From NCBI RefSeq assembly GCF_042453785.1, contig NC_091666.1:27114501-27178500 (forward strand): a stretch of 64,000 bases of DNA, given 5' to 3'. This DNA comes from Malus domestica (Eukaryota > Streptophyta > Magnoliopsida > Rosales > Rosaceae). Of the stretch, positions 14,426 through 63,580 are shown one piece after another. The notes beneath the pieces are model-generated. The model worked only from the letters and a program-made list of their open reading frames with translations. It was not told the origin of the DNA and did no database searches. Made by a program: the position numbers and the translations under genes. Within the stretch, counting starts at the first letter, position 1. The number at the start of each line of letters is the position of its first letter.

Positions 14426-14947
14426 GGGATATGGGCACTTCATTCTTGTTGATGGTGTGGGAATCCAACCCGACGACGTCTTCTTCTTCTACCATTCAGA
14501 TGCTGCAACTGCATTGAACATCATTGATTATGCATCTGATAACCTTCAAACTTTTGTCCATAATGATTCCGAAATCCAGCCAGAGGTGTTCGGAGGGTTT
14601 ATCTTCTCCAGCAAGAAACGCGGCGCGTTGATGTTCGATAGACCTAATGTTGATTGTAAGCCGTTTGCTGACAACTTCCCAGGAGTTCCGGTAGCCAGAA
14701 TGTTTGGCAATAAGGAGATCGCGTGTGGTGAAGAAGAAGATAATGAACTCGATCATCCTCGTTCTGTCCATGCTTGTAGCTCTATGTACTTGGCCATGAA
14801 TTATGTTCCTCCCCAAGCTCCATATTACTTGAAGGAGTAGATGTTTGGTCGGTTTTCTCCCATTGAAAAAGAATAAAGTTCGTTGTTTTTGTTGGGGTGT
14901 TGGGCATAAGTTGGTGTGTTTGTGTTGTCATATGTTGTAAGTGTTAG

Positions 14948-15952
14948 TGTAAACACGAAATTTTCTTGAAACAAACGAGACAAGAACACGTGTACAAAAT
15001 AATATTTTGTATTAATGATAGGGGTTACAATCTCTCTCAAATTTGATCCTCTGATTCGATCTCCGTAAGGTGTTGATTTGTGGATTGTGATGCTGATCCA
15101 AGGGCCGTCGAGGCTTGACCTCAGATGAATGGTTGGAAGTTTCTTCAAGAGGGCCTTTTGGGCTTGATCTTGAAGGTTGATTGATGAACGGATCTTCAAG
15201 GGCTTTTGGGCTTGATCTGAAGAACTGTTGATGAACGGATCTTCAAGGGGCCTTTTGAGGCTTGATCTTGATGAACAGTTGATGGATGGATCTTCAAGGG
15301 CTTTTGGGCTTGATCTTGAACAACTGTTGATGAACGGATCTTCAAGGGCCTTAGGGGCTTGATCTTGATGAACAGCTGATGAATGGATCTTCAAGGGCTT
15401 TTGGGCTTTATCTTGAAGAATGGTTGGATGTGTGGATTTGTTGATGTTGTTGATCCAAAGGGCCATTGAGGCTTGATCTTAGGATGAACGGATGATGAAC
15501 GATAAACGCCTTATTAAAGGTCGTCGGGGCTTGATCTTGAATTGGTGGAAGTTCCTTCAAATGGCTGTTGGGGCTTGATCTTGAAGGTTGGGTTGACGAA
15601 GAATGAAGAGAGCTTTCTTGATCATTTGGGATTTGCTTGGGAGCTTTGGAGTTTTAAAGCTTCAAGGTTTTGGTGTGAGGTGAATTGATTATGAATTGGT
15701 TTTCCGAATTCCCCAAAAATGAATGAAATGGCTTATATTTATAGAATTTTCCAAGGCCTAATTTTGAATATAATATGCAGATGAAATAAATCGTTTCTGC
15801 CAGGTGTTGACATGTGTCCTATTTGATGACTTTTTCGATTTATTTTGATTTTTCGTTTAGTCACACGCTACGTGTAAAATTTATGTGAAACGTGAGCGTT
15901 GAAATTGTAACTATTGGTCAACATTTATTTCATCGAAATTTCGATGTCTACA
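14948..15952 (-). repeat. 3' LTR of the gypsy-like element
   Basis: TG...CA ends, 1005 bp, and very similar to 22860-23866. It contains a minisatellite at about 15165-15430: five units of roughly 57 bp sharing GATCTTCAAGGGC and GGGCTTGATCTTGA. The long minus-strand ORF over this array is a repeat translation. Confidence 0.85.
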
Positions 15953-17780
15953 AATGCCCTCACTTCAAGGCGCGTCGTATACATGTGCTTGTCACGTGTA
16001 GGAGATGCGTTTTGAAGTCCCTTAGTGTAGATGTCGATCCAAGGGCCATCGAGGCTTGATCTTGAATTGGGCTGGAGATTTCTTCAAGGGCCGTTGAGGC
16101 TTGATCTTGAATTGGGCTGAAAGTTTATTCAAGGGTCGTTGAGGCTTGATCTTGAGGGTTGAAATTGGACCACAAAGAGCTTCATGTGGTAGATGATCTT
16201 TGGCTTTGGTAGTGGATGAATTGGCACGTATTTGTTTTTGCGCTTGTTGACTTTCCACAGCTTTGATCTTGAACTGGGTTGGAGAATTTTCTGGATTCCT
16301 CAAATTGTTGACTTTCCTCAGCTTATTCTTAAACTGGATTTGATTCAAGGGTGGTGGACGCTTGATCTTGAATCGGACTTGTGATTTCCTCAAGGGCCAT
16401 CGAGGCTTGATTTTGAATTTGGCTGGAAGCTTCTTCAAGGGTTGTTGAGGCTTGATTCTTGAAGGTTGACTCGAACACATGGCAAGCAGGCATGAGGTGA
16501 AGGTGATGACTTGTTGCTTTGTTCAATCTTTCTAATTCACACATGAGCAGTTTAGTCAACGGTATGATCTTCAAGATTGATGGGCTCTTTTTCCAGTTGG
16601 TGACTTGATCTTTAAGGATTTGATTCAAGGGTGGTGAATCGGCACGTGCAGCCCACAACGCCTAGCGAGTCGACCCAAGAATTTGAGGGTCAAAACGAGT
16701 CATCCACCCATAGTGATTGCAACCTTGATGATATGAGATACTTTTGATTTTGAAGCAGTATCGGATGAATCGGCACGTGCTTTGTTGTGCTTGTCTCCAC
16801 ATGCTTCAATGTATCATTTTCCCTTGCCTTATCTGTTCTTTAGGCAAATGTGGCATCTTCTTGAGTTCCTCAACTCAGACTCATTCTGCTGAGTTGACTG
16901 TGCAGGCTGCATTCTTCTCTGCTTGTTTCTTCTGCATGTTGTCTCCACATGCTGCAAGGTATCATTTTCACTTGCCTTATCTATTCTTCAAGCAAATGTG
17001 GCAGCTTCTTTGGAAGTACAGTAGCAGTGGAAGACGAGTACTTGAGAGCAATACCATGTAAGCAACCAGGTAAAGGTTCCAGGTAGTCAATTCCTTACCT
17101 GAGTTTGAGTGGAGGTTCCGACATATTGTTTTCTTTATCCTTGTCTTTGCAGGTAAGAACAAGGACAAAGGAAATGACAAGGAGAACGCATGATATGAGA
17201 TACTCTTGCTTTATACCCTGATGATATGAGATACTTTTGTTTTGGTGTCATTTGTTTGTAGAGGTACCCCAAGGAATAAGGAACACTGAGTGACTCGAGA
17301 GGCTTCGTTGGGAAGGTATTCTCGGAGATGAAGAAAGGTTCTGTATGTTTGCCTTGCTATGAAGGGTGAAGGTTGACATTTATATGGATTAATAACCGGT
17401 ACTGTTCTTTCACTCTTGTCGGCAACTGTTGGATGATTTAACGGTAAACTTCACGTGCTTTCTACTTCACAAGAAATCTTCGACAGAATTTCTGCAAGAC
17501 TGAGTGTGCATGTGACAGGCGCTGACATGTCTGGAAAAGCAGATGCCTTTCCGATTTCTGATCTTGCCTCTTCGAGTTCTGAGCTCGCCTCTTCGACTTC
17601 TGAGCTTCGTCGAGTGCAGAGGTTACATGTGACAAGTGCGGACAAATCTGGAAAAGAAGATTGGCCCGTGGTTTCTGAGCAAGCCCAGCTTTTGAGAAAG
17701 CATGCGCCTCTTCGATTTTTGAATTCGCCTCTTCGATTTCTGAACTTGCCTCTTCGATCTCTAAAATCCCGTCGAGTGTT
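15953..17780. repeat. Repeat-rich internal region of the gypsy-like element
   Basis: More units of the type TTCAAGGGCCGTTGAGGCTT occupy 16030-16480. From about 16735 the sequence matches 33540-36230, including TCGGCACGTG, CTTGTCTCCACATGCTTC and GATATGAGATACTTTTG. From 17540 there are several CCTCTTCGA-type units. It is not coding. It forms the upstream flank of the antisense ORF unit. Confidence 0.6.
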
Positions 17781-17784
17781 GATT

Positions 17785-17794
17785 TTTATATAGG
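17785..17794 (+). promoter_or_regulatory. TATA-like box before the antisense ORF (copy 1)
   Basis: TTTATATAGG lies about 115 bases before the ATG at 17904. The paralogous copy has TTTTTATAGGGG at about the same distance from its ATG, so the position is conserved between copies. Confidence 0.5.
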
Positions 17795-17903
17795 CACGCA
17801 GTACGTTTTAAAGCACACTTGAATTTCTGCCTGTAGAAACTCCCTTCTTGCACTTCTACGATCTTGACTTGTCCGACCTTTTCTTTCTTCAACACCTTTG
17901 AAA

Positions 17904-18569
17904 ATGTCTGACCCCTCCGACCGTCGTTTTGACTTGAACCTTGATGAAGAGGCAGTCCCGCCTTCTTCAAACAACATATGACGCCCATCCTTCATATCCC
18001 TTACTGGTCCTTTTACCGTTGGGGATTCGGTGATGAAGAATGATATGACCGCTGCGGTGGTGGCCCGGAACCTTGTCATTACCAAAGATAACATACTGTT
18101 TTCCAAATGGTCTAATGAGTTGGCTGTTAAGGATTCTCTGGATCTTAGTGTGCAGTGTGCATGTTCTGTGTCTAATATGGCCCAACGTCTATTTGCTCGA
18201 ACCCGTCAAGTTGAATCATTGGCGGCTGAAGTGATGATTCTCAAACAGGAGATTAGAGGGCTCAAGCATGAGAATAAACAGTTGCACAGGCTCGCACATA
18301 ACTATGCTACAAACATGAAGATGAAGATTGACTAGATGCAGGAATCTGATGGTCAGATTTTACTTGATCATCAGAGGTTTGTGGGTTTGTTCCAATAGCA
18401 TTTGCCTTTGTCTTCTAGGGCTGTACCGCGTAATGAAGCTCCAAATGATCAACCTTTGGTGCCTCCTCATCCTGGGGTTTTGCCTAGTACTGAGACTCTA
18501 AATAATCACCCTTTGGTGCCTCCACCTTCTGGAGCTCCGCCGAGTACTAAGACACCACCTGAGCAATGA
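17904..18569 (+). pseudogene. Degenerate copy of the coiled-coil accessory ORF
   Basis: It reads in one frame over 222 codons with three in-frame stops where the intact copy at 36347 has sense codons: TGG to TGA near residue 26, CAG to TAG near residue 145, and a TAG in a serine/proline-rich stretch. The central segment SNMAQRLFARTRQVESLAAE, and the zipper after it, is almost identical in both copies. It runs opposite to the gag remnant of the surrounding element, in the space between the missing pol and the 3' LTR. A conserved AATAAA follows at 18644-18649. Function unknown. Confidence 0.8.
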
Positions 18570-20258
18570 AGACTCCCTCCCGTTTGTTTGCACATTTTTT
18601 TTTCATGTAAACGTACGTTTCTGTAATTTTTTTTAGAGAAATCAATAAACGAGCTTTGTTTCACTCAGTGTACATTTTTTTTTCACATGGTGTCAAAAGC
18701 ACTAAAGGACTCTATGATTACTTTTTTTTTTCACATGGTGTCGTCCACCATCATTTTTTTTTTTGCTTTCGGTGGTGCTCACACCCACCACCATCATGAA
18801 CCCTTCAACTTTTATTTTTAATTTTTTATATATTTTTTATTATATATATATATAATTTTTTTTCTGTCTGCTTTCGATGCCAGATGCACCTTTTTTTTTC
18901 ACGTGGTGCCAGTACCACTTTGCTCCACTATCTCATTTTTTTATTATATTTTTTTTTTTGTATAAATTTTGATGATGGGTGAGGAATTTGCAAGGAGCGG
19001 AGCAAGGAGGCTGAGAAGATTGTGCTTCGAGCTTCACGACCGGCTAGTCGTTTGATGGCGGTCGTTGAAGTTCTTTGTTATCATGGTGGTCATAGTGACG
19101 AGCTCGAGGGAGGCTAGGCGCTGCGATGGAAGATGGGCAGAGATGCATGATGGCAGAGCTTTGTGGAAGAGATGGAGCACGATGTGGGTGCAAGGTCGTT
19201 TGACAGCGGTCTTTGATGTTGTTGGCAGCTGCGAGGCAAGAGACGGAAGAGGTCTTTGGGTGTGTATTAATAAACTTTGGTTTTGTCAATCTCATTCAAA
19301 GGCGGCAGCCATGGCGGAGGTGCAAAGGAAGAAGCTTCACCACTACCTTTACTGAGCACAGCCACTGAGCACAACCATTGCACTGTCTGCCGAGCACAAC
19401 CATTACACACCCGTTGCACTGCCACTGAGCATGGCCACTGAGCATAGCTACTGACCATAGGCATAGAGCACAGCCACTGCCCGTTGCACTGCCTGCCATC
19501 GCGGAGGAAGGCGAAAGAGAGAGTATGAAGGTCATTGGGTGTGAGTTGGCAAACTTTGGTTTTGTCAATCACATTCAAAGGCAGCAGTCATAGCGGAGAG
19601 CTGGAGCTTGCGCTGTTGTTGTGGAGACCGAATCAATTGTTACTAAGCATGAGTAGAACCAGGCTGCTATTGATTTGAAGTGGTGGGCATGGCTCGAGGT
19701 AGAGAGAGGAGGAGGATGCAGAGCTGGTGGAAACTATGTAGTGGGCTGACCTGAAGCGAAGCATCCTCGCTGGGCAAAAGGAGTGGGAGAGCCAAGTGGT
19801 GATGAAAAGTCCTGCTCGTGACTAGCTGCTGTGACAATGGCTGCTCTTTGCTCGCTGTTGTGGAGGAAGGTTGAGCTTCGCATGCTGCAAGGGACCAGAG
19901 ACTGTACTTGGAAGGACCGTCTTGTAGCTACTGCTGTGCTTCACCGCCACCTCACTGCTTGCTGCCCGTTACCTCATGAAATTGGTGGTGTAGAGAGGGT
20001 GGCTACCAGTGCAGGTTCGAAAGGAAGGATCGCAGCTGTCTTTGGAGGAAGAGCGGGGAAGAACGAGATGACGGTTAAGCAACCTGAGAACGCTCGACCT
20101 GAGTTACAACCTCATCGTCGGAGCAATCTTTTCCTCTTCAAGGCCTTGTTCATCACCAGCAACTTCCAGGCTCAACAACAACATCTTCATACAACAAAGT
20201 AGAAGAAGAAGAGGACAATGAGAAGCATGGACGGAGAGCACTGAACAATCCAATCGTC
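18570..20258. other. Degenerate repeat-derived sequence inside the gypsy-like element
   Basis: Poly-T runs and repeated GGTGTC/CACCACC tracts fill 18590-18960. Two copies of CTTTGGTTTTGTCAATC with following CATTCAAAGG occur near 19275 and 19555. A low-complexity GAGCACAGCCACTG tract lies at 19350-19490. ORFs here have biased composition and no family features. Confidence 0.4.
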
Positions 20259-20729
20259 ATGGAAGTCGAAGCTCAAGAATCCAATTCCCAAAACGATGTC
20301 GTCGTCAGTTTCTCCTGCGAGATCACATCTACATCGAAGCAAGAAGCCATCTTCTTCGTTGAATCCCACAACTGGAACCTTGATGCTGCCGTTTCCACAT
20401 TTCAGGACAACAATGCCGCCGTCCTCGCCGCTGCTGTCGAGCTCGGAGTCGAGAATCACGCTGCTGGTGCTGACGTTGCTGATGATGTTGAGACCGAATC
20501 AAATGTTGTTGAGCAGGAGAAGCACACCAACCTTCGAACCCAAGACCCTCCACTTGAGCGGAGCATGGAAGCCAGTTGTGGTGCAGCGACGATGGTGTTC
20601 ACAGATCTTAGATCTGAGAATGAGCAATCGAAGTTGGCGTTGGTGTCGAGGCCAAATATGGTGAGTACGAGGTTGGTGAGGAAGGACACGGGTCCAGTGG
20701 TTGCTAGAATTAGGTTGCGCAGGTGCTAA
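20259..20729 (+). CDS. Captured fragment of a PUX/p47-type UBA protein
   Basis: A 156-codon ORF encodes a segment like the N-terminal UBA-like domain of plant UBX-domain (PUX) cofactors of the CDC48 ATPase: ITSTSKQEAIFFVESHNWNL, then DAAVSTF, at residues about 22-48. After the UBA part the sequence is acidic and not recognisable, and no SEP or UBX domain follows. It lies inside the gypsy-like element and lacks introns, so it looks like a host-gene piece carried by the transposon. Whether it is translated is unknown. The UBA match is from memory of PUX4/PUX5-type proteins. Confidence 0.55.
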   Translation: MEVEAQESNSQNDVVVSFSCEITSTSKQEAIFFVESHNWNLDAAVSTFQDNNAAVLAAAVELGVENHAAGADVADDVETESNVVEQEKHTNLRTQDPPLERSMEASCGAATMVFTDLRSENEQSKLALVSRPNMVSTRLVRKDTGPVVARIRLRRC

Positions 20730-21179: not shown

Positions 21180-21620
21180 CTCTTGCGGGCCAGGAGCGTC
21201 TTGATGCCATTTGCAGTTTCAACTCATGCAGGCAGGGAACATTGGTGTTGCCTTTTATGCTCGTGCAAGCCAGGAGCTTAGTGCCATGCAGTTTAGGCTC
21301 GTGCAGGCGAGGAGCCTCGTGTCCTACAGTTTAGGCTCGTGCGGACAATGAGCTTTGGTTCGTGCAGTTTAGGGTCGTGCGAACAAGGAGCATTGGTGTC
21401 ACCTTTTATGCTCATGCAAACAAGGAGCATTAATGTCGCCTTTTGTGCTCGTGCGGACCAGGAACGTTTTGGTGTTGCCTTTTATGCTCGTGCAGACCAG
21501 GAGCTTTGGTGTCCTGCAGTTTAGGCTCTTGTGGACAAGGAGCATTGGTGTTGCCTTTTATGCTCGTGCAGACTAGGAGCTTTGTGCCATGCAGTTTAGA
21601 CTCATGCGGGCGAGGAGAAT
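21180..21620. repeat. Tandem array after the gag remnant
   Basis: Units of about 45-50 bp share GCTCGTGC, CAGGAGC and TTTTATGCTCGTGC, repeated about nine times with drift. In the minus frame the array gives histidine/lysine-rich peptide repeats such as PGLHEHKRQH. It could be a variable 3' part of the gag region or noncoding satellite. The stop at 21632 separates it from gag. Confidence 0.7.
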
Positions 21621-21631
21621 TGGTGAATTTG

Positions 21632-22780
21632 TCAAGCAATTTTGAAGAGGTGTTCCTCACAATCTTCATAGCAAGGAGCCTTAACCGAGTGATTGAAGAA
21701 GTCTTCGAGCAAGAAGTCGCGCATCGTGATGGCAACATACGATCTTTGTGTCGCAATTTCATCATCTTCAACACTTTCATGTAGCCTTAGAGGTTGACGA
21801 GAGCTGCTTTGCCCCATTTCCAATTGGTGAACTTGTGGAGGAAACGTATGCTTCTTGTGCAGTTTCTTTGGAGTAACATGCGTCCATCCCTCAACTTTAC
21901 TTTGCTTGACTGGCATGGTTTTGGAGCATGCCCCCAGCGATTGAGGTGAAGATTTTGAGTCGACAGAGCCATAAGTGATGGTGGTATAATTTGACTTCAC
22001 CACATCGTCAAGATCTAGCTCAATGATTCCTTTCTGAGCCAACTTCATGATGAGATCTTTCAGTACGAAGCACTTTTCCGTTGGATGACTTATGAAATGG
22101 TGGAATTTACAGTACCTTGGACTGTCAGTACGATTCATCTCTTCCGGCCGTCTGCACTCAGGTAAGTCAATCACCTTTTTGTCAAGCAAGTTTTTTAACA
22201 TGGCAACCACATCAGAGTCGGGGAATGGATAAGTCTTATCCTCAAGCTCCTTCAAAGTACGTCTTCGCATCTCTTGATCACGAAAAGCTTCGGCTTGAAT
22301 TGCCTTGCCTCGTGTAGAGATTTTGACGGGAGTTATGTTGACCGTCATTGCTTCCTTGGTGGATTTCCACGCAGCCTTTTCCACCTTTGTCCCAAGAACT
22401 TTGTCATTCTTGTAGTCGGTGATCGATTCATTTATTTGAGTCAATTGTTCTTCAATTGAGGTAACGCCGATGGTCATGACTTGTACAACCAATAGACGTG
22501 ACTTTCTTTTAGACATCCAGGATGCTGACGAAGAACGTCGTTTGATGCTTTGGGATGTCATCTTGTGTGCCTCAGCAGCATGCTTCGGTGCCCCCAGCGA
22601 GGTCAGGTTAATGACGGACTCATGCATTTGATGCTCCCTTTGCTCCTTTAGCAGCACCAACTTTGAAGTGGCATGTTAAGGAGCGGTTGTGGTGCCAATG
22701 GATTGTCCGTTCGCGGCAGAAGTGCTCAGGATCCTTCCCTTAGTGGTTGCGAGAACGGCTTGTCCCTTGCTTGATGCCAT
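21632..22780 (-). pseudogene. gag remnant of the gypsy-like element
   Basis: The minus-strand frame begins ATG at 22780 shortly after the PBS-like site. It is broken by one in-frame TAA at 22676-22678, then is open for 342 codons to 21632. A zinc-knuckle-like motif, YCKFHHFISHPTEKC, followed by FVLKDLIMKLAQKG, is typical of plant gypsy gag-pol as I remember it. No protease or reverse transcriptase follows. The stop could come from CAA to TAA. The element depends on other copies for movement, if it moves at all. Confidence 0.72.
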
Positions 22781-22859: not shown

Positions 22860-23866
22860 TGTAAACACGAAATTTTCCTGAAATAAACTAGACAAGAACA
22901 CGTGTACAAAATAATATTTTGTATTAATGATTTAGGGGTTACAATCTCTCTCAAATTTGATCCTCTGATTCGATCTCCATAAGGTGTTGATTTGTGGATT
23001 GTGATACTGATCCAAGGGCCGTCGAGGCTTGATCTCGGATGAATGGTTGGAAGTTTCTTCAAGAGGGTATTTTGGGCTTGATCTTGAAGGTTGATGGATG
23101 AACGGATCTTCAAGGGCTTTTGGGCTTGATCTTGAAGAACTGTTGATGAACGGATCTTCAAGGGGCCTTTGAGGCTTGATCTTGATGAACAGTTGATGGA
23201 TGGATATTCAAGGGCTTTTGGGCTTGATCTTGAAGAACTGTTGATGAACGGATCTTCAAGGGCCTTTAGGGCTTGATCTTGATGAATAGCTGATGAATGG
23301 ATCTTCAAGGGCTTTTAGGCTTTATCTTGAAGAATGGTTGGATGTGTGGATTTGTTGATGTTATTGATCCAAAGGGCCGTTGGGGCTTGATCTTAGGATG
23401 AACGGATGATGAACGATGAACGCCTTCTTCAAGGGTCGTCGGGGCTTGATCTTGAATTGGTAGAAGTTCCTTCAAATGGCCGTTGGGGCTTAATCTTGAA
23501 GGTTAGGTTGATGAAGAACGAAGAGAACTTTCTTGATCTTTCGGGATTTGCTTGGGAGCTTTGAAGTTTCAAAGCTTCAAGGTTTTGGTGTGAGGTGAAT
23601 TGATTATGAATTGGTTTTCCGAATTCCCCCAAAATGAATAAATGGCTTCTATTTATAGAATTTTCCAAGGCCTAATTTTGAATATAATATGCAGATGAAA
23701 TAAATCGTTTCTGCCAGGTGTTGACATGTGTCCTATTTGATGACTTTTCCGATTTATTTTGATTTTTCGTTTAGTCACACACTACGTGTAAAATTTATGT
23801 GACACGTGAGCGTTGAAATTGTAACTATTGGTCAACATTTATTTCACCGAAATTTCAATGTCTACA
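22860..23866 (-). repeat. 5' LTR of the gypsy-like element
   Basis: TG...CA ends, 1007 bp, the partner of 14948-15952. The minisatellite of GATCTTCAAGGGC units recurs at about 23080-23340. The two LTRs differ by scattered substitutions and small indels, so the insertion is not very recent. Confidence 0.85.
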
Positions 23867-23965
23867 GTTAGATCCCACATCGTTCAGGGAAGTGGATCCT
23901 CTATGCCTTGTATGTACATGCCCATCTCTTCCTAATATGAGGCCTTTTGGGAACTCACTGACTTT

Positions 23966-30135: not shown

Positions 30136-32157
30136 CATAGTACAGCTTCTAATTCTACTTTGTTTTGTTTATAACTGGTTCTATTCTATTTGTATATATT
30201 TGCTTACTTTAAAAAAAATGCGATAAAGTTAAAATGCAATTGTGATATTGGCACGGCTCAATCAAATTAAAAGACCCAATCCTTTGGGAGATTTTATTTG
30301 ATTGAGCCATTCCAACATCCCACATTTTCCAGCAAAACAAGAACACAAAACCCCAAAGGCACGAGTCTTCACTTCCACCTCCATGGATCATATCACTCTC
30401 TCAAATACTTCCTTCTTTATTTGGTTTTCGCCGTGACCCATATCGATCGCCTTGGTCTCCGCCGTGACACATCCACCGCGAGGAAGTCGATGATGCAGAG
30501 CGAAAGAGAGGTGATGGATGTGGAGAAGCCATTGAAGTTGCAAATGTGATGAGGGAAAGAATGGAATTTATAGAGATGGGTTGCAAACAAATAGAAATAT
30601 AAAACTGTTGAGTGCACCTTTAGATATATATACTTTATGTACATGTAAAATAAAATCGTAAATGGTGGGCCTCCCGATCGAAGAGTCCTGTGTAGTAGCG
30701 TCACTTGCACACCCTCAAAGCCGGCTCTGTTTAAAACTCTAATGAACGAATTCAAATTATAGTATTATCAACGAAAAACAGTGAGGTTGAACAGGCAAAC
30801 CATGAAATTAAACAGCTAACAATATTGTATGAAATCATTGCCGTCCGAGTTAGATGTGTTCTAGTGAAGGTCTCATTTGTAGTTGGTGCTTTGAAAAGTT
30901 CTTAGATTCTCATAACTACGACTTTAAAATGTATACATTAAATCGGTTTATAAATGGAAGATAATTGAACTCTTCACCTAACCAATCATGTTTTTAGGGG
31001 TGCAACTGCAAATTGTAACGCTTGAAGAATTTAGAGGGAATGCTTTCATTTGGTTTATTTAATCTTTTCGGCTATCCTTCTCAATCTGCATGTTGCACCG
31101 ATGGTTCAAACTGTCTATTTTCTATGTCATCCCTTCAAAATCATTATTACAATAAATTAACTATATCCAATAAATAGGCGAATCATGTTTCTTACTTGAA
31201 TGCTAAAATTTTGATAACGTTAATCAAATGATTTCTAGTTTGGTTGATTTCTTCTTCAGAATTGATCTTTAAATGTAACCTAAACTTTTCGTTCATCAAG
31301 CAACATTGTATGATGTAGAAAAAACTAAGAAATTAAATGTCTGAATGAAAAGATTGCTAGCATCCGCCAAATCAAATACAAGTCGAAATCCACACAACTT
31401 AAATATAGGCTTAAAATCCAAGTTGGAATTAATTATGTTTAGTAGACTTTTTAAGTGCAGAGGCCGTCTGATGATGCATGGCAATGGCGTGTTCATTATC
31501 TCACAAAAGACACAAAAACTACGTTTGCATATTCGCCAACCCATTAAGCCAAAACAGTCAATGACTTGACCTAATTTCTTGTCCCATTTTCTTCATGATT
31601 TAGTGCATGTCTTTGAAGAAAAAATGAATATATCTATAAATAACAACCCAACTGAAAACGAAACTAGATTTGATCTCAGGATTACTTAGAGCCACCCTAT
31701 AGAAGAAAGTGGTTGCAGCATTGTTGTTTGTCCCGTAATGTTACACGATGATCTAAACCGACTATTGCTCCTATTTCTACTCACAATAGAGAGCGAGAGA
31801 GAGATTTTATAAGAGCTTTCTTTATTTAACCTTAGACACTGCTCTTGGAATAGAATCCTACTTTAGCTTTGATTACCATAAAAGAGAATTAAACTCTTAA
31901 CTTAGTCGAAAAATCTCTCTATTTTCTTTTGATACAAATGAACGGAATTCAATATAGTCTCTCTTTTGTAAAAATATAAAATTGCGTGTCCCCACACTAA
32001 TCGAATATTGCAATAGTATACATTGCAGGTATAACAGTAATTTAAGAAGAATCGGAAATAGCCATTTTCCATTAATCAAATCAAAAACATAAAAACAAGT
32101 TATAGCCGGCATCTGACCAATAAGAAAAATGGAAATTAGTAAACAGTCGGCAGCCGA
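30136..32157. other. Intergenic DNA, no gene seen
   Basis: Short ORFs on both strands show no family features. No transposon ends were recognised. Confidence 0.45.
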
Positions 32158-32793
32158 CAAACAAACAAACAAACAAAACAACAACAACAACAACAACAAA
32201 GCCTTTTCCCACTAAGTGGGGTCGGCTATATGAATCCTAGAACGCCATTGCATTCGGTTTTGTGTCATGTCATCCGTTAGATCCAAGTACTCTAAGTCTT
32301 TTCTTAGAGTCTCTTCCAAAGTTTTCCTAGGTCTTCCTCTACCCCTTCGGCCCTGAACCTCTGTCCCGTAGTCACATCTTCGAACCGGAGCGTCAGTCGG
32401 CCTTCTTTGCACATGTCCAAATCACCGGAGCCGATTTTCTCTCATCTTTCCTACAATTTCGGCTACTCCTACTTTACCTCGGATATCCTCATTCCCAATC
32501 TTATCCTTTTTCGTGTGCCCACACATCCCACGAAGCATCCTCATCTCCGCTACACCCATTTTGTGTACGTGTTGATGCTTCACCGCCCAACATTCTGTGC
32601 CATACAACATCGCTGGCCTTATTGCCGTCCTATAAAATTTTCCCTTGAGCTTCAGTGGCCTACGACGGTCACACAACACGCCGGATGCGCTCTTACACTT
32701 CATCCATCCAGCTCGTATTCTATGGTTGAGATTTCCATCTAATTCTCCGTTCTCTTGCAAGATAGATCCTAGGTAGCGAAAACGGTCGCTTTT
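32158..32793 (-). mobile_element. 5'-truncated RTE-type LINE (pol C-terminus)
   Basis: On the minus strand the sequence encodes the C-terminal part of a LINE reverse transcriptase protein (FRYLGSILQENGELD, AIRPAMLYGTECWA, RRPTDAPVRRCDYG). It ends in a (TTG)n-type tail at 32158-32200, as RTE elements do. One in-frame TGA replaces the expected TGG at about 32419. The 5' end is cut at 32793, where LTR-like sequence begins. Confidence 0.8.
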
Positions 32794-33033
32794 TGTGATC
32801 TTCGCTAGATTGCTCCGGTCATTAGTGTGGATAAGTATATAAATGGATAGAGATAGGAAAGCAAACACAAGATGTACGTGGTTCACCCAGATTGGCTACG
32901 TCCACGGAATAGAAGAGTTCTCATTAATTGTGAAGGGTTTACACAAGTACATAGGTTCAAGCTCTCCTTTAGTGAGTACAAGTGAATGATTTAGTACAAA
33001 TGACATTAGGAAATATTGTGGGAGAATGATCTC
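32794..33033 (-). mobile_element. LTR fragment of the 62987 family
   Basis: TGTGATCTTCGCTAG through GAGAATGATCTC matches the left half of the LTR at 62987-63449. That half is the transcribed end of the LTR on the minus strand. The match stops at 33033 and the promoter half with the CCAAT/G-box units is missing here. Confidence 0.7.
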
Positions 33034-36000
33034 GTAATCACGAAACTTCTAAGTATCGGAGTGTGGTGTCGTCTTGACTTGCCTTATCTGTCTCATAGGT
33101 AGATGTGGCATCTTCTGTGGAAGTACTTTTCCTCCATCCAGGGGTGGTATCTTTAACTGGTGGAGATGCACAAGGTAATGTATCAATTTCACTTGAAGCT
33201 TACTTGTAGTTTCAGGCTTGGTCGAGCGCGATACAAACCATGTAGTAGGAGTTCCCCAAGTCGCCGAGCTAGGGGGTCTGCTGAAAGAGGTGACAGACAA
33301 GGTAAGCAATCAGAGCTCCGACTGATTGTTCACCTTCTCCCCATCTTGCAACAGCATGAAGGATAAAGAGAAGAAAAATGAGAAGAGATGATATGAGATA
33401 CTTTTGCTTTTGAAGAAGTAACTTTCCACAGGCTTATTCTTGAACTGAGCTGGAGGGTTTTCTGGTTTCCTCCAGAGTATAAGGCCGACTGAAGAATTTG
33501 AGGGTCAAAACAAGTCCATCAAATCTAGAGTACGTTCCACCCTGCTGATATGGGATACTTTTGCTTTTGACAGAGTAATGGATGTATCGGCACGTGTGCT
33601 GTTACGCTTGTCTCCACATGCTTCCTTGTATCCTTCGCACTTGCCCTATCTGTTCCTCAAGCAGATGCGGAATCTTCCCTGGAAACATAAGATGTTGAAG
33701 ATGAGTACTCGAGAGCAATGCCAGGTAAGTAATCAGGTAAGGGGTTCCAGGCAGTCAGTTCCTGGCTGGAAGCTTGATTCCAAGTGCTGACTGATTGCTC
33801 TCTTTCTCCTTGTCTTGCAGGTAAAAACAAGGCCAAAGGAAAAGGCAGGGAAAAAGCATGATATGGGATACTCTTGCTTTTAACCCTGATGATATGAGAT
33901 ATTCTTGCTCTAGTATAGCTTGTTTGCAGAGGTATTATCGGGGGGAAAGAAAGCTGAATATTTCGAAAGGCTTCGTTGGGAGTGCCCTCTCAGATATGAT
34001 GGAGGGTTGAGCATTTTTGCAGGTCTGCCTGTCCGTTGGGGATGGAGGTCGACATATATAGGCGTCTCCCTAACAACAAGTAGTAATGCTATTCCTTTAC
34101 CCTGCTTGGTCATAGCACGGTAGTGGGAGCTGCCAGCTTCACATGTTTTAACTCTGTCAGAGCACTTTGAAAAAGTGGTCTGTGGTATCTGGCTCTCGAG
34201 ATTCGGAGAACGATGCCTCTTCGATTTTTGAGAAAGCAATCATGCTGGGGTCTGGCTCTCGAGATTCGGAGAGCAGTGTCTCTTCGATTTTTGAGGAAGT
34301 AATCATGTTGGGAGTCTGGCTCTCGAGATTCGGAGGGCGGTGCCTCTTCGATTTTGGAGCAAGCAATCTTGTTGGGAGTGTTGTCTCGAATTTGAGTAAA
34401 GGTTGGGCATGTTTGCTAGTCTACCTTGCCACGAAGCACAAAGGTTGACACACAGGGACTTTCCAATTATCCAGCAATGGTACTGTTCCTTTACCCTCTC
34501 TTCGATTTTGAGAAAGTAGTCATGTTGAGAGTCTGGCTCTCGAGATTCGGAGGACGGTGCCTCTTCGATTTTGGAGCAAGCAATCTTGTTGGGAGTGTTT
34601 TCTCGAATGTGAGTAAAGGTTGGGCATGTTTGCTAGTCTACCTTGCCACGAAGCACAGAGGTTGACACACAGGGACTTTCCAATTATCCAGCAGTGGTAC
34701 TGTTCTTTTACCCTTGTGGGTAATAATATGGTAGCTAGACCTTCAAAATTTATGTGTCTAAACTTTGTTAGTGCTGTTTCTTTGCTATTCTTTTACCTTT
34801 CTTGGTCAGAGCGATGTAGTGGGAGCTGCAAGCTTCACGTGCTCAACTTTGGCAGAGAACTTTGGCAAAGTTATATGTGGTACCCATGAGCTATTGTTGC
34901 GTGTGGAAAGTGGGTAATTGAACAGTAAGATTCATGTGCTTTCTACTTCACCAGAAATCTTCGACAGAATGCCCATAATTTCTGCAAAGCTGAGTGTGCG
35001 TGTGACAGGTGCTGACAAGGCTAGAAAAGTAGGTGCCTCTTCGATTTCTGAGATCGGCCCTCGTGGTCTCTGGGCAGCCCAGCTTTTGAGAAAGCGAGCG
35101 CCTCTTCGATTGATTCGGAGAACGATGCCTCATCGATTTTTGAGAAAGCAATCATGCTAGGGGTCTGGCTCTCGAAGATTCGGGGAGCAGTGTCTCTTCG
35201 ATTTTTGAGAAAGTAATCATGTTGGGAGTCTGGCTCTCAAGATTCGGAAGGCGGTGCCTCTTCGATTTTGGAGCAAGCAATCTTATTGGGAGTGTTTTCT
35301 CGAATGTGAGTAAAGGTTGGGCATGTTTGCTAGTCTACCTTGCCACGAAGCACAGAGGTTGACACACAGGGACTTTCCAATTATCCAGCAATGGTACTGT
35401 TCCTTTACCCTCTCTTCGATTTTTAATAAAGTAGTCATGTTGGGAGTCTGGCTCTCGAGATTCGGAGGACGGTGCCTCTTCGATTTTGGAGCAAGCAATC
35501 TTATTGGGAGTGTTTTCTCGAATGTGAGTAAAGATTGGGCATGTTTGCTAGTCTACCTTGCCACGAAGCACAGAGGTTGACACACAGGGACTTTCCAATT
35601 ATCCAGCAGTGGTACTGTTCCTTTACCCTTGTGGGTAATAATATGGTAGCTAGACCTTCAAAATTTATGGGTCTAAACTTTGTTAGTGCTGTTTCTTTGC
35701 TATTCTTTTACCCTTCTTGGTCAGAGCGATGTAGTGGGAGCTGCAAGCTTCACGTGCTCAACTTTGGCAGAGAACTTTGGCAAAGTTATCTGTGGTACCC
35801 ATGAGCTATTGTTGCGTGTGGGAAGTGAGTGATTGAACAGTAAGATTCATGTGTTTTCTACTTCCCCAGAAGTCTTCGACAGAATGCCCATAATTTCCGC
35901 AAAGCTGAGTGTGCGTGTGACAGGTGCTGACAAGGCTGGAAAAGTAGGTGCCTCTTCGATTTCTGAGATCGGCCCTCGTGGTCTCTGGGGAGCCCAGCTT

Positions 36001-36225
36001 TTGAGAAAGCGAGCGCCTCTTCGATTTCTGAGATCGGCCTTCGTGGTCTTTGAGCAGCCCAACTATTGAGAAAGCAAAAGCCTCTTCGATTTCTGAGATC
36101 AACCCTCGTGATCTCTAAACAGCTCAGCTTTTGAGAAAGCAAACGCCTCTTCGATTTCTGAGCAGGCGCCTCTCCGATTTCTGAGCAGGCGCCTCTTCGA
36201 TTTCTGAAGCTCCGTCGAGTGCAGA
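33034..36225. repeat. Repeat-rich flank of the coiled-coil ORF unit
   Basis: Not coding. The part from 33420 matches 16250-17780 of the gypsy-like element. Two units with a period of about 915 bp occur (about 34400-35285 and 35286-36190); GTGGGTAATAATATGG is at 34716 and again at 35631. A sub-repeat with TGCCACGAAGCACAGAGGTT occurs four times. The motif CCTCTTCGATTT, often followed by CTGAG, recurs more than ten times up to 36205. ORFs reported across this region are repeat translations. Confidence 0.7.
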
Positions 36226-36237
36226 TTTTTATAGGGG
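36226..36237 (+). promoter_or_regulatory. TATA-like box before the intact coiled-coil ORF
   Basis: TTTTTATAGGGG lies about 115 bases before the ATG, matching the spacing in copy 1. It sits right at the end of the CCTCTTCGATTT array, so the array is in the proximal promoter position. Confidence 0.5.
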
Positions 36238-36346
36238 CTGGCATTAAGTTCTAAAGCACACTTGAATCTCCACCAGTAGAAGCTTCATTCTTGCACTTCT
36301 AAGATCTTGATTTGTCCGACCTCTTCTCTCTTCAACACCTTTGAAA

Positions 36347-37021
36347 ATGTCTGGCCCCTCCGACCGTCGTTTTGACTTGAACCTTGTTGAAGAGGCAGCC
36401 CCGCCTTCTCCAGACAACATATGGCGCCCATCCTTCGTCTCCCCTACTGGTCCTCTTACCGTTGGGGATTCCGTGATGAAGAATGATATGACCGCTGCGG
36501 TGGTGGCCAGGAACCTTCTCACTCCCAAAGATAACAGACTACTTTCCAAACGGTCTGATGAGTTAGCTGTTAAGGATTCGCTGGCTCTCAGTGTTCAGTG
36601 TGCAGGTTCTGTGTCTAATATGGCCCAACGCCTATTTGCTCGAACCCGCCAAGTTGAATCATTGGCGGCTGAAGTGATGAGTCTCAAACAGGAGATTAGA
36701 GGGCTCAAGCATGAGAATAAACAGTTGCACCGGCTCGCACATGACTATGCTACAAACATGAAGAGGAAGCTTGACCAGATGAAGGAAACTGATGGTCAGG
36801 TTTTACTTGATCATCAGAGATTTGTGGGTTTGTTCCAAAGGCATTTATTGCCTTCGTCTTCTGGGGCTGTACCGCGTAATGAAGCTCCAAATGATCAACC
36901 TCTGATGCCTCCTCCTTCCAGGGTTCTGTCCAGTACTGAGGCTCCAAATGATCCCCCTCCGGTGCCTTCTCTTTCTGGGGCTCTACCGACTGCTGAGACT
37001 TCTCCTAAGCAACCTTTGTGA
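36347..37021 (+). CDS. Retroelement-associated coiled-coil protein, function unknown
   Basis: An intact 224-aa ORF beginning MSGPSDRRFDLNLVEE. The ATG at 36347 is chosen because copy 1 aligns from the same codon and a TATA-like box lies about 115 bases upstream. Residues about 95-150 form a likely coiled coil with a leucine-zipper-like run (LKQEIRGLKHENKQLHRLAH). The C-terminal third is Pro/Ser-rich with repeated NEAPND/TEAPND units. No catalytic motif, signal peptide or membrane segment was seen. In copy 1 the same ORF lies antisense to gag, upstream of the 3' LTR, so I read it as an antisense accessory ORF of a gypsy-like family. AATAAA follows at 37089-37094. Transcription from this locus is plausible but unproven. 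Confidence 0.7.
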   Translation: MSGPSDRRFDLNLVEEAAPPSPDNIWRPSFVSPTGPLTVGDSVMKNDMTAAVVARNLLTPKDNRLLSKRSDELAVKDSLALSVQCAGSVSNMAQRLFARTRQVESLAAEVMSLKQEIRGLKHENKQLHRLAHDYATNMKRKLDQMKETDGQVLLDHQRFVGLFQRHLLPSSSGAVPRNEAPNDQPLMPPPSRVLSSTEAPNDPPPVPSLSGALPTAETSPKQPL

Positions 37022-37282
37022 AGGCTCCCTCTTGTGTGTTTATTTTGACTCATGTATATGTACATATTTGTAGCTTATCGGGGATATCAATAAATAAGCT
37101 TTCCTTCATTTCAACGTATTGTGTTAAATACACCAAAGCCTTCTTCGCTAAGTTCTTTGAATTTTCTTTTGTTGAAGCTTGTATGTTGAAGCTTTCTGAG
37201 TGGAGCATGTAGGTTGGGGTAGTGTTCCCTTAATTTCCCGAGTGAGGAAAACTTCTCGGTTGGAGACTTGGAAAATCCAAGT

Positions 37283-37626
37283 CACTAAGTGGGATCGGCT
37301 ATATGAATCTTAGAACGCCATTGTGCTCGATCCTGTGTCATGTCCTTCGTTAGATCCAAGTACTCTAAGTCTTTTCTTAGAGTCTCTTCCAAAGTTTTCC
37401 TAGGTCTTCCTCTACCCCTTCGGCCCTGAACCTCTGTCCCATAGTCGCATCTTCTAATCGGAGCGTCAGTAGGCCTTCTTTGCACATGTCCAAACCACCG
37501 TAACCGATTTTCTCTCATCTTTCCTTCAATTTCGGCTACTCCTACTTTACCCCGGATATCCTCATTCCTAATCTTATCCTTTCTCGTGTGCCCACACATC
37601 CAACGAAGCATCCTCATCTCCGCTAC
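37283..37626 (-). mobile_element. LINE pol fragment, second copy
   Basis: CACTAAGTGGGATCGGC to CTCATCTCCGCTAC matches 32210-32552 closely. Here the minus frame is open over 116 codons and keeps the Trp codon that is a stop in the first copy. It lacks the (TTG)n tail. The two fragments flank the coiled-coil ORF block as direct repeats. Confidence 0.78.
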
Positions 37627-45363: not shown

Positions 45364-47628
45364 GGCCATCTCCAACCGAAGAAGGGCCAGAAGGCTCGTT
45401 TTAGGCATCTGGCCTTCCAAAAAATTAATATTTTAATGAACAGTGCATGCCATATTTCTTAGGTCATCTCCACCTGAAGGCTAGCCAAGGGCTTGTTTTA
45501 GCCATTTGGCCCTCCAAAATATTAATTTTTTAATGAACAGTACATGACCATATTTACCTCAATCTCCAATCGAGGGCCAAAAGGCCATAGGATTTGTTTT
45601 AGCCTTGTTACAAAAAACCTTCTCCAACTGAGGGCCAAAGGATCATATGACCAAACGTAATTTATTATTTAAATTTAAAAACTACAAATTAAATTTAAAA
45701 ACTACAATAACTTAAATTTATAGAAAAAACTGAGAATTTTTTAATATTTTTTTTAAAAAATTTTGCCAAAAAAATTTAATTCAAATACAACGGTAACTGG
45801 CGTCGGCTAGCCGTTGGATTTGAATATTTTTGGGCTATATATAGTGTGGATATTGGGTTATAATTCACACACCTTTGAATTCAATTTTTTTTTCAATTCA
45901 AACTCGTTCAATTCAAGTTTGCAATGAATTCCAACTTTGGATCCTCTTCGAATTCCAACTGGGGGTCCGAATCCAATTCCGAATTGGTAGAAAAATGGGC
46001 ACAAATGAGACAAAAAGATGAGGAGTCTGATGAAGAAAATGAAGCATGGCGCAATACACAATATGTGGCAACCATGGCAGCGTCCATGGTGTGTCAGCCA
46101 ACTGAGGAACAACCTCAATGAGGCGGCTCTGTTGCTGGTCGCTTTTACAAACCACGAAACAGAGCGATGACACATGACAACTCGGTGTACACAGAAGAGG
46201 ATTTCAGACGTCGTTTCCGAATAAAGCGTCATGTGTTCGAGCGTTTACTTCATGATGTCCAGTAGGTCAATCCATACTTTCGACAGAAGCTGGATAGAGC
46301 AGGCCCTCCTGATTTGTCACCTCATCAGAAGGTTATTATTGCACTCCGAATGATGGCTCATGCCTCCCCAGCTTATGCGATGGATGATATGTACGGTATA
46401 TCTAAGTCTACATGCCTTGATACTCTTGCTGAATTTTGTGACACAGTTGTTCATCTTTACAAAGAGGAGTACCTCTGTGAGCCAAATCAAGAAGATCTGG
46501 ATCGGCTCCTTCGCAAAGCTGAAGACCATAGCTTTTCGGGCATGATAGGGTCATTAGACTGCATGCATTGGAATTGGAAGAACTGTCCCACCGGATGGCG
46601 ATGAGGCTTTAGCGGAAGGTCAAGAAAGCCAACTATTGTGTTAAATGCGGTTCCCTCGTATGACACATGGATCTGGCATGCTTTCTTTGGAGTCACTGGA
46701 TCCCAAATTGACATTCCAGTTCTTGGGCGTTCACCCCTCTTCAATAACCTGACGGAAGGTAAATCACCTCAACTTGACTACTACATCAACGTCCGTTAGT
46801 ACAATATGGGGTATTACTTGACAGATGACATCTACCCAAAGTTGGCGACACTTGTCCAAGCAATTCCAAACCCTGCGAATGACGCCAAAAAGTGTTTTAT
46901 CTTACACCAAGAGGCATACCTAAAATATGTTGAGAGAGCTTTCGGTATTCTACAAGCATGGTGGAAGATCATCAAGGAACCGGCAAGAGGGTGGAGTCGA
47001 GAAAATTTGGACTCCATCATGATGTCTTGCATCATATTACACAACATGATTGTGGAGGATAAGCGAGATGGATATATTGATGGAGAGTTTGATGACGACC
47101 AAGAGGATCCAAATAGGTCAAAAATAGCTCATGCAAAAATATATGATGGGCCTAATTTGCCTTTCAATCCAAGAACTGGTAGTATCTCTTTAAATTAGTA
47201 CATGAAGCGCTATAGGATGATACGTTCCTTTGCCACAAACAAGTACCTACAATAGGATCTTGTTGCACATCTTTGGGCCAAAAGAAGCATGGAGTAAACG
47301 TTTAAGTTTTATGTTGTTTAAGTTTCATGTTGTTAAATGTTTTTTCCTATGTTGTTTTATGTTATTTAATGTTGTTTAATATTGTTTAATGTTATTTCAT
47401 GTTGCTTAATGTTATTTAATGTTGTTTAATGGCTTAAGAAGTTATAGGGGAAAAAAATTGTAAAAAATAAAAAAAAAATTCAAAAATAACGACTAGCTAA
47501 CGTCAACAGTTACCGTTGTAATTCAAATTTTGGCCTTTTTTGTTCAGTGAGACCCATGAGCCATTTGGCCTGTCCCTTGGTTAGAGACGGCTTTTAGGCT
47601 ATTTTCGGCCCTTCGGTTGGGGATGGCC
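45364..47628 (+). mobile_element. PIF/Harbinger DNA transposon
   Basis: A 2265-bp element with inverted ends GGCCATCTCCAACCGAAG and CTTCGGTTGGGGATGGCC, flanked by TTA on both sides (45361-45363 and 47629-47631), the usual PIF/Harbinger target duplication. It encodes a broken DDE transposase (45924-47198). The left end holds additional TIR-like motifs at about 45462, 45560 and 45618. It lies about 350 bp upstream of the MADS-box start codon. Confidence 0.93.
45924..47198 (+). pseudogene. Harbinger DDE transposase with four in-frame stops
   Basis: One frame runs through the whole region, broken only by stops at 46119 (TGA), 46263 (TAG), 46602 (TGA) and 46797 (TAG). It starts MNSNFGSSSN and shows SVYTEEDFRRRF, GSLDCMHWNWKNCP (first catalytic Asp), YYLTDDIYPK (second Asp) and YVERAFGILQAWW (Glu), the DDE_Tnp_4 pattern of plant transposases. 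No frameshift is needed. Each stop could arise from one C-to-T change (CGA to TGA, CAG to TAG). The partner Myb-like ORF of autonomous Harbinger elements was not seen. Confidence 0.88.
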
Positions 47629-62137: not shown

Positions 62138-62986
62138 TTTTCTTCTGTGTTTGTTGTAACAATTGATGGCAAGAAATTGAACACTCTGATCCAACAGGAA
62201 CATGAGTTTTATACAACACATGTTAAAGAAAAAAGTGGATTCCTACTGAACTATTTAAACTCAAATCAAGCTAGCTTTAACACTTTAATTCTCTTTTATT
62301 TTTTTAGCCAATTTGTTTTGTATTTTAGTTTTTGAGATTTTCTTTCATAATTGCGAGCTGTTATTGACACTTTAAAATTGTCATTTTATAGATATATAAA
62401 AATACAAAGAAAAAATTCTATAAAATTCAGTGCAGAATAACATTTTTCAAGTGCCGATAACATCAACGATGTGAATTTAGCTATTTGTTTTGGTAATGTC
62501 CCATTGGATTTCAAGTTCTGTATGATAAATTCAAGACCACTACTTTTTGTGGAGAAGTTATATACAGATTCCTGAATATAAGGGCAAAATTCGCACGCAA
62601 TGGGCCTTTTCTTTTCTCTAAAGAAATGCATCATCGATGCTTTGCGCAAACCTTATTAGAAGTTAGAATCTGATTATCATATCATAATTTACTAATTCAT
62701 ACATTAATTTTTATCTTCTACACACACCTTTCAATTTTTGACAATTAGATCGAATAAATTGAACAAAATTAAATAACATAAATCAAAAGAATGTGTGTGA
62801 GGTAAAACGAGATGTATGAATAGTGCCACCCGTTGCTAAAAGTCCTAACTTGTTTTTAATCAATACAAAGTTGCCTTCATAATCTAGTCACAAAGGGTCG
62901 ATACAACTTGGGAGAACTAGGATGAGATACATCTTGTTGATGCACAAAATCAGTGGGGACTTTGGTACAACAGAAAGTGTTAAGTT
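62138..62986. other. Flank between the DUF3339 gene and the LTR
   Basis: Includes the probable promoter of the second DUF3339 gene. The last 100 bases, up to AACAGAAAGTGTTAAGTT, may be internal sequence of the LTR element that follows. No gene seen. Confidence 0.4.
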
Positions 62987-63449
62987 TGTGACCTTCGCTA
63001 GATTGCTCCGGTCACTAGTGTGGATAAGTATGTAAATGGATAAGGACAGGGAAGCAAACACAAGATGTACGTGGTTCACCCAGACTGGCCACGTCCACGG
63101 AGTAGAGGAGTTCTCATTAATTGTGAAGGGTTTACACAAATATATAGGTTCAAGCTCTCCTTTAGTGAGTACTAGTGAATGATTTAGTACAAATGACATT
63201 AGGAAATATTGTGAGAGAATGATCTCTATTTATAGAAGAGAGTTTCTAGTTTCATTCTGACATTGACACGTGTCGTGTTGTGATTGGCTTCTGATGTTGA
63301 CACGTGTCGCGCTATGATTGGCTTCTAATGTCGACATGTGTCGTGCTGTGATTGGCCTCTTGGTTGGAGGGAAACTCTTCTGGGTCCTTGACGGTATAAC
63401 GTTGACCGGTGCTCAGTAGTTTTGGGATTGGTCAAGTATGGTACAAACA
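62987..63449 (-). mobile_element. LTR with a CCAAT/G-box triplicated promoter
   Basis: 463 bp with TG...CA ends (TGTGACCTTCGC to GGTACAAACA on the plus strand). On the minus strand, a TATAAATA box at about 63226-63234 is preceded upstream by three 38-bp units (63245-63360), each with CCAATCA and a CACGTG-like core (the third is ACATGT). A fragment of this LTR lies at 32794-33033. No partner LTR is in the window, so it is a solo LTR or an edge of a larger element. Confidence 0.7.
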
Positions 63450-63580
63450 CATCTAACATGTAAAAAATAATGTCTTCACCTAACTACGATCACAAATAGC
63501 CAATACAAATATTTTTGCATAAAATCTAGGTTTAGTTAAACTTTACAATAATTTATGTATGATAGCTTAGAAAAGTGTAA

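Follow-up and report, generated by a model that had tools for sequence, protein, structure and literature searches.

A reading frame on the plus strand of an apple chromosome (Malus domestica, 64,000 nucleotides, hereafter the window) runs opposite to the LTR element that surrounds it, and the question raised by this locus is whether the frame is an accessory gene of that element and, if so, in which copies of the family the gene has been preserved. The antisense accessory gene is called aORF here; two copies are present in the window. The features of both copies and of their carriers are collected in Table 1.

Table 1. Features of the two aORF copies and of the elements that carry them, with positions in the window.
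Feature	Position	Strand	Basis or remark
Element 1, left target-site duplication GTTAG	14943-14947		
Element 1, 3' LTR	14948-15952	-	LTR pair 95.4% identical; LTR TATA on - strand
TATA-like motif, -117 of aORF copy 1	17787-17793	+	similar motif at equal distance in copy 2
aORF copy 1, degraded	17904-18569	+	translation; 78% amino acid identity to intact copy
AATAAA 3' of aORF copy 1 (+75)	18644-18649	+	
Element 1, ORF with UBA-like domain (PF14555)	20259-20729	+	E 1.4e-9; not found in 20/20 related loci
Element 1, 38-bp tandem array between gag-like ORF and aORF	21212-21625		related array in 11/20 loci
Element 1, gag-like ORF	21632-22675	-	position and gag-like motif; related DNA in 16/20 loci
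Element 1, 5' LTR	22860-23866	-	LTR pair; K2P 0.041 between LTRs
Element 1, right target-site duplication GTTAG	23867-23871		
Simple-repeat tail, LINE 3' end	32157-32200	-	(CAAA)n and (CAA)n on + strand
Second LINE 3' piece, 586 bp, closing the chimera	32210-32795	-	~93-94% identical to first piece
Second-LTR-type fragment	32792-33033		93.8% over 242 bp to probable solo LTR near 62985
LTR-element 3' internal region and tandem arrays, LINE cargo	33034-36346	+	pieces homologous to 16231-17900 of element 1
aORF copy 2, intact (224 aa), inside 5'-truncated chimeric LINE	36347-37021	+	
C-terminal end of LINE RT ORF	37283-37626	-	matches L048:4937-5280, part of 838-aa RVT_1 ORF

The carrier of copy 1, element 1, is an 8.9-kb LTR element that reads on the minus strand. 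It has the features of an LTR retrotransposon, i.e., a TG..CA LTR pair, a 5-bp target-site duplication on both sides, and a PBS and a PPT at their positions. The two LTRs were compared over 1009 columns, and with substitution rates of 1.3e-8 to 4e-9 for LTR dating, assumed here, their distance corresponds to an age of 1.6-5.1 million years. The gag-like ORF sits just inside the right LTR, beside the PBS. On the sense strand, 27 stop-to-stop pieces reach 60 aa or more, and Pfam models of gag or pol (E<=1) were matched by none of them; element 1 is therefore considered non-autonomous or degraded, and the label gag is based on the position next to the PBS and on a motif that we take to be that of a gag. 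Matches of this ORF in the PDB were at chance level, no relative could be confirmed among viral contigs, and no paper on the motif was found in a literature search. ARAGORN identified no tRNA within the 64-kb window. Elsewhere in the window, ORFs were observed at 46314-47198 (+), which presumably belong to a Harbinger-type transposase.

On the opposite strand of element 1, the ORF with the UBA-like domain also showed a weak match to the NSFL1 cofactor p47 (E 0.22). Because it was found in none of the 20 related loci described below, this ORF is probably a private capture of a piece of a host gene, antisense to element 1.

The position of copy 1 agrees with the earlier note, in which the frame was placed between gag and the 3' LTR on the opposite strand: the plus-strand frame lies between the minus-strand gag-like ORF and the left (3') LTR. 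The same note had called it an ORF, however, the frame is not open. It starts with an ATG, and its translation contains in-frame stops at codons 26, 144, and 165, with 117 codons as the longest uninterrupted piece. The TATA-like box proposed about 115 bases 5' of the ATG and the AATAAA proposed about 75 bases 3' of the stop could both be located (Table 1). Against a chance background of 18% for the TATA motif and 12% for AATAAA, either one alone is weak evidence; both recur in copy 2 at similar distances, as TATAG at -117 and AATAAA at +68.

In copy 2, all 224 codons are open, whereas no ORF in 1000 Markov sequences of that region was longer than 207 codons. DNA identity between copies 1 and 2 is 89.4% in the ORF and 73-83% in the flanks. 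The predicted protein contains a leucine zipper (L106/113/120/127), and its leucine heptad score was equalled in 0 of 500 shuffles, while four leucines at seven-residue spacing by themselves were seen in 12 of 500. A single-sequence structure model predicted a helix of 108 residues, from residue 60 to 167, with a mean pLDDT of 70.3 and 77 of the 224 residues at pLDDT >=90; both ends of the protein were predicted with low confidence and without regular structure. The heptads and the predicted helix support the coiled-coil, leucine-zipper-like protein that had been proposed for this frame, and the aORF protein may dimerize.

When compared with Pfam at E<=1, the copy 2 protein gave 13 weak matches, largely to coiled-coil models and all below the cut-off. 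No significant relative was identified in Pfam, NCBIfam or PDB, where the latter two yielded weak matches to coiled coils, and none could be confirmed among viral contigs or genome contigs. TRP28 (PF04195) was matched at E<=1 neither by the copy 2 protein nor by the other element ORFs scanned. A bZIP factor was also considered and rejected, as there was no Pfam bZIP match at E<=1 and the basic region, judged by eye, is not in a fixed register with the zipper.

To place copy 1 among its relatives, the assembly of the window (651 Mb, 19 contigs) was searched at the DNA level with the broken copy 1. The best 40 of 4216 candidates were scored, all at 91% or higher, and ranks 2-21 of these were fetched as 10-kb stretches, yielding 20 related loci. 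An LTR and the 3' internal region were found left (upstream) of aORF in 19 of them, and a right LTR was seen in 15. Gag-like DNA right of aORF, antisense as in element 1, was present in 16 loci and reversed in none, and the first gag-like block lay 2.0-3.8 kb from aORF. A random orientation relative to gag-pol, which the earlier note had named as an argument against an accessory gene, was thus not observed, the arrangement being antisense in all 16 gag-bearing loci.

In the remaining four loci no gag was within reach, and three of these (L009, L017, and L019) were scanned. All three contained further ORFs with a plant mobile domain (PMD, PF10536; best E 9.4e-24) on the aORF strand, which constitute a second antisense gene in the 3' region. 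Beyond the PMD ORF of L009, an ORF that we take to be integrase-like was found on the opposite strand (SH3_Tf2-1, E 0.0017, below the cut-off); an RT belonging to the LTR family was not found. The order in L009 is 3' LTR, aORF, PMD ORF, and pol, with both extra genes antisense. aORF occupies the place that an antisense ORF has in Retand elements, between pol and the 3' LTR, with the integrase-like neighbor seen in L009 alone. The LTR pairs of L018 and L027 are ~98.5% identical, yet aORF is interrupted in both; ~9.1 kb lie between the LTR ends of L027. In L014 an ORF was observed right of aORF, which we assume to be a Copia gag, probably of a nested insertion.

These loci also bear on the origin of the gene. 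A TATA-like box and a poly(A) signal of its own, as in a cellular gene, would be expected if aORF were a captured host gene riding in the elements like the UBA piece, and the adjacent UBA ORF suggests that capture happens in element 1. Nevertheless, such an origin is considered quite improbable, since aORF was present at all of the best 40 places (in a search by the gene itself, which does not give a frequency), each of the 20 long loci has an LTR-element feature beside aORF whereas the UBA piece is in none of them, and no significant relative was found in Pfam, NCBIfam or PDB.

The intact copy was used for a second search of the genome, at the protein level, in which the best 150 of 10,269 candidates were scored. 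All 150, window copy 2 among them, are listed as 100% identical in protein and without stops, and 143 reached the full self score. The earlier note had read aORF as a gene of the LTR element; its best-preserved copies, however, were found in a chimeric LINE (22 of the 23 identical-protein copies sampled). Copy 2 itself is located in a 5'-truncated chimeric LINE, with the LTR-derived gene opposite to the LINE's own ORF. This is concluded because the unit at 32180-37626 is repeated in the same order in all three loci fetched as 7.5-kb stretches (L048-L050), with 97.6-98.1% identity, and because the 3' flank of aORF is directly joined to the LINE C-terminus in 19 of 20 further copies out of the best 150. 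The twentieth ends ~50 bases into the aORF flank. Within 1 kb, this junction was found in 0 of the 20 LTR-type loci.

L050 matches the unit in three pieces, and its left end is formed by the second LINE 3' piece (586 bp) together with a (CAA)n tail; the fetched stretches of L048 and L049, which are 98.5% identical throughout, start inside the unit. Right of 37626, L048 and L050 run into a minus-strand ORF of 838 and 824 aa, respectively, as far as fetched. The 838-aa ORF matched RVT_1 with E 3.8e-36, although LINE and LTR reverse transcriptases cannot be told apart by this model alone. The carrier of copy 2 shows the characteristics of a LINE, namely an RT ORF without LTRs, a simple 3' tail, and a 5' truncation, which was seen in the window copy (at 37626) as well as in L060 and L067. 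A target-site duplication of the window LINE copy was sought and not found, and in the 838-aa piece, of which the N-terminus may be cut, no endonuclease was detected with Pfam at E<=0.01. Judged from its sequence, this LINE may belong to the RTE clade. A probable solo LTR of the second LTR type was observed at ~62985-63470, and its first 242 bp also occur in the chimeric LINE (Table 1).

Two LINE 3' pieces with 93% identity flank copy 2, which could also be obtained if an LTR fragment had been enclosed by two independent LINE insertions. This arrangement was rejected as scarcely credible, as both pieces are repeated at ~98% in L048-L050 and the right junction recurs in the 19 further copies. 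The presence of aORF in two unrelated carriers might in addition indicate an independent nested transposon that entered LTR elements and LINEs. This is very improbable: homologous pieces of element 1 (16231-18663) and the LINE copy (33403-37108) extend beyond the gene, and no terminal structure of aORF's own was seen. Since the carriers share more than aORF, the LINE took a segment of an LTR element.

Combining the LTR loci with the chimeric LINE, the reading that we favor, with a probability of roughly 0.75, is that copy 1 is the decayed accessory gene of a Tat-like LTR family and that, separately, a LINE amplified a segment carrying the intact gene. Tat-like refers to a Retand/Ogre-type LTR retrotransposon family, of which element 1 would be a pol-less derivative. 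In the chimera, this segment lies downstream of the RT ORF and in opposite sense, and it comprises a fragment of an LTR, the 3' internal region of the LTR element, and the aORF unit; the LINE would have acquired it from such an element and amplified it with the gene intact. The chimera may have originated when transcription of a LINE continued into another, truncated LINE copy, from which the 3' end was derived. As long as the elements were active, the aORF protein may have been an accessory factor, perhaps nuclear and acting in transcription or integration.

Whether the protein was under selection was studied in 40 copies, namely copy 1 of the window, the 20 loci fetched as 10-kb stretches, and 19 further loci of which the gene alone was fetched; since these copies are related and were selected as those nearest to the broken copy 1, the p values are rough. 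Copy 2, the LINE copy, served as the reference for the variant classes. Thirteen of the copies have neither a stop nor a frame-breaking indel, 19 have no stop, and 27 are interrupted. Singletons showed nonsynonymous and synonymous variants (N/S) in numbers of 130/49; variants present in 2-5 copies gave 105/67, those at mid-frequency 20/21, and near-fixed ones 23/14. Leaving out the class of 2-5 copies, singletons differed from mid-frequency plus near-fixed variants (43/35) with p 0.005. The contrast was stronger in the first 165 codons (94/38 vs 17/23, p 0.001), and no N/S contrast was found in the C-terminal tail (p 0.27). It remained at p 0.005 for the whole frame when CpG-related sites were skipped. 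In the other five frames the contrast gave p 0.13-0.98; sense-strand ORFs opposite aORF were rejected, as the three minus-strand frames showed no significant contrast.

Stops amounted to 0.65 per copy, whereas entirely random differences would be expected to give 1.6. Common variants are poorer in amino acid changes than singletons, which suggests past selection on the protein, in a shared-variant test that ignores the relatedness of the copies and recurrent mutation. Near-fixed differences to the LINE copy had an N/S of 1.64, less low than the 0.95 at mid-frequency. Nine of the 13 stop sites recur in 2-4 copies each, and these shared sites may represent broken frames that were passed on, or recurrent mutation. 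Because 27 of the 40 copies are interrupted, including L018 and L027 with their similar LTRs, an intact aORF seems not to be needed in cis.

For the pair of window copies, dN/dS was 0.63 (bootstrap 0.39-1.05), and 24% of neutral simulation runs were as low, which makes the value indistinguishable from neutrality; a third-position excess was not found in this pair (34, 18, 18). Residues 76-165 alone gave a dN/dS of 0.33 (p 0.03).

The LINE copies were analyzed separately by a search with the chimera-specific flank, in which the best 40 of at least 1000 candidates were all 100% identical. An open 224-codon frame is present in 19 of the 20 copies picked in this way. Singletons among these copies comprise 22 N and 12 S (1.8 vs 2.37 expected) and two stops, and the pairwise divergence of the LINE ORF is ~0.8%. 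Judged from these counts, new variants in the LINE copies look neutral, close to expectation. Since the family is young and its variants appear neutral, the 150 identical proteins are not evidence of selection, and intact LINE frames that are explained by youth do not by themselves show function.

Youth and neutral-looking variants of the LINE copies, together with the stops in young LTR copies, are what would be expected if aORF yielded no useful protein and its antisense promoter produced a non-coding RNA, for dsRNA/siRNA control or anti-silencing, with the frames open by youth. Antisense RNA has been discussed as a possible role of such genes (PMC7264820, available in part). We consider this possible but somewhat unlikely, since the N/S contrast was seen in the coding frame alone and, within it, in residues 1-165, and since conservation between the two window copies is higher in the ORF (89%) than in the flanks. 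The favored reading, a decayed accessory gene with an intact version amplified by a LINE, could be extended to an LTR accessory gene that crossed to the LINE as a complete transcription unit, the protein of which may serve the LINE, LTR elements in trans, or the host; this extension is regarded as unlikely.

Antisense genes are common in Tat elements and their role is not established. The aORF family provides many copies in which old shared changes can be tested against new ones, and its presence in a second carrier, which replicates by another mechanism, is a natural experiment. If the LINE-borne copies are transcribed, at least 143 templates would exist for one identical small coiled-coil protein. 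Gene annotation pipelines could mistake aORF copies for host genes.

LINEs mobilize sequence that is not their own, by 3' transduction and in chimeric LINE insertions. Here, the cargo is a segment of an LTR element in which the antisense gene is intact, and many copies of it exist. In the literature on antisense ORFs of Tat, Retand, or Rosaceae elements, non-autonomous gag elements, gene capture, and chimeric RTE LINEs of apple, chiefly top-ranked, open-access papers, no report of the aORF protein or its transfer to a LINE was found. HODOR is a high-copy LTR repeat of apple with a length of 9.2 kb or 9,716 bp (PMC6901071, PMC13334179, PMC8558331, PMC6445120, in excerpts). Likened by description and not by sequence, the LTR family of aORF resembles it in high copy number and in length (compare L027), and may be HODOR or a relative.

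Extra ORFs occur in non-chromovirus elements and are often poorly conserved (REXdb, PMC6317226, in excerpt); in the same source, PMD is given for Ogre (57% of elements) and TRP28 for Retand (23%). In the three loci scanned here, the PMD ORF is located antisense in the 3' region, beside aORF; the family may belong to either Ogre or Retand. In Retand, antisense ORFs are a regular feature and 97% of their clusters encode TRP28, according to the available part of PMC11963269. The TRP28 model has at least 24 places in the apple genome (best 150 of 420 candidates), and among the matches listed none, by eye, is closer than 10 kb to any of the aORF places listed. The aORF protein differs from the Retand clusters in having no TRP28 match, in being shorter, and in its second antisense gene with PMD. 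Shared with the Retand antisense ORFs are the antisense position between pol and the 3' LTR, a long 3' region with tandem arrays, and non-autonomous members (PMC11963269, in excerpt).

An own promoter and a nuclear location have been reported for gene23 of Grande, an SMC domain for ORF2 of PvRetro13, and TRP28 for ORF4 of Retand (PMC7264820, in excerpt). The comparison with Grande drawn in the earlier note holds only for the position; TRP28, which Retand antisense ORFs usually encode, was not matched here. In position and strand, compared by description rather than by sequence, aORF resembles gene23 of Grande, the antisense ORF of RIRE2, ORF4 of Retand, and ORF2 of PvRetro13, as described in the same part of PMC7264820.
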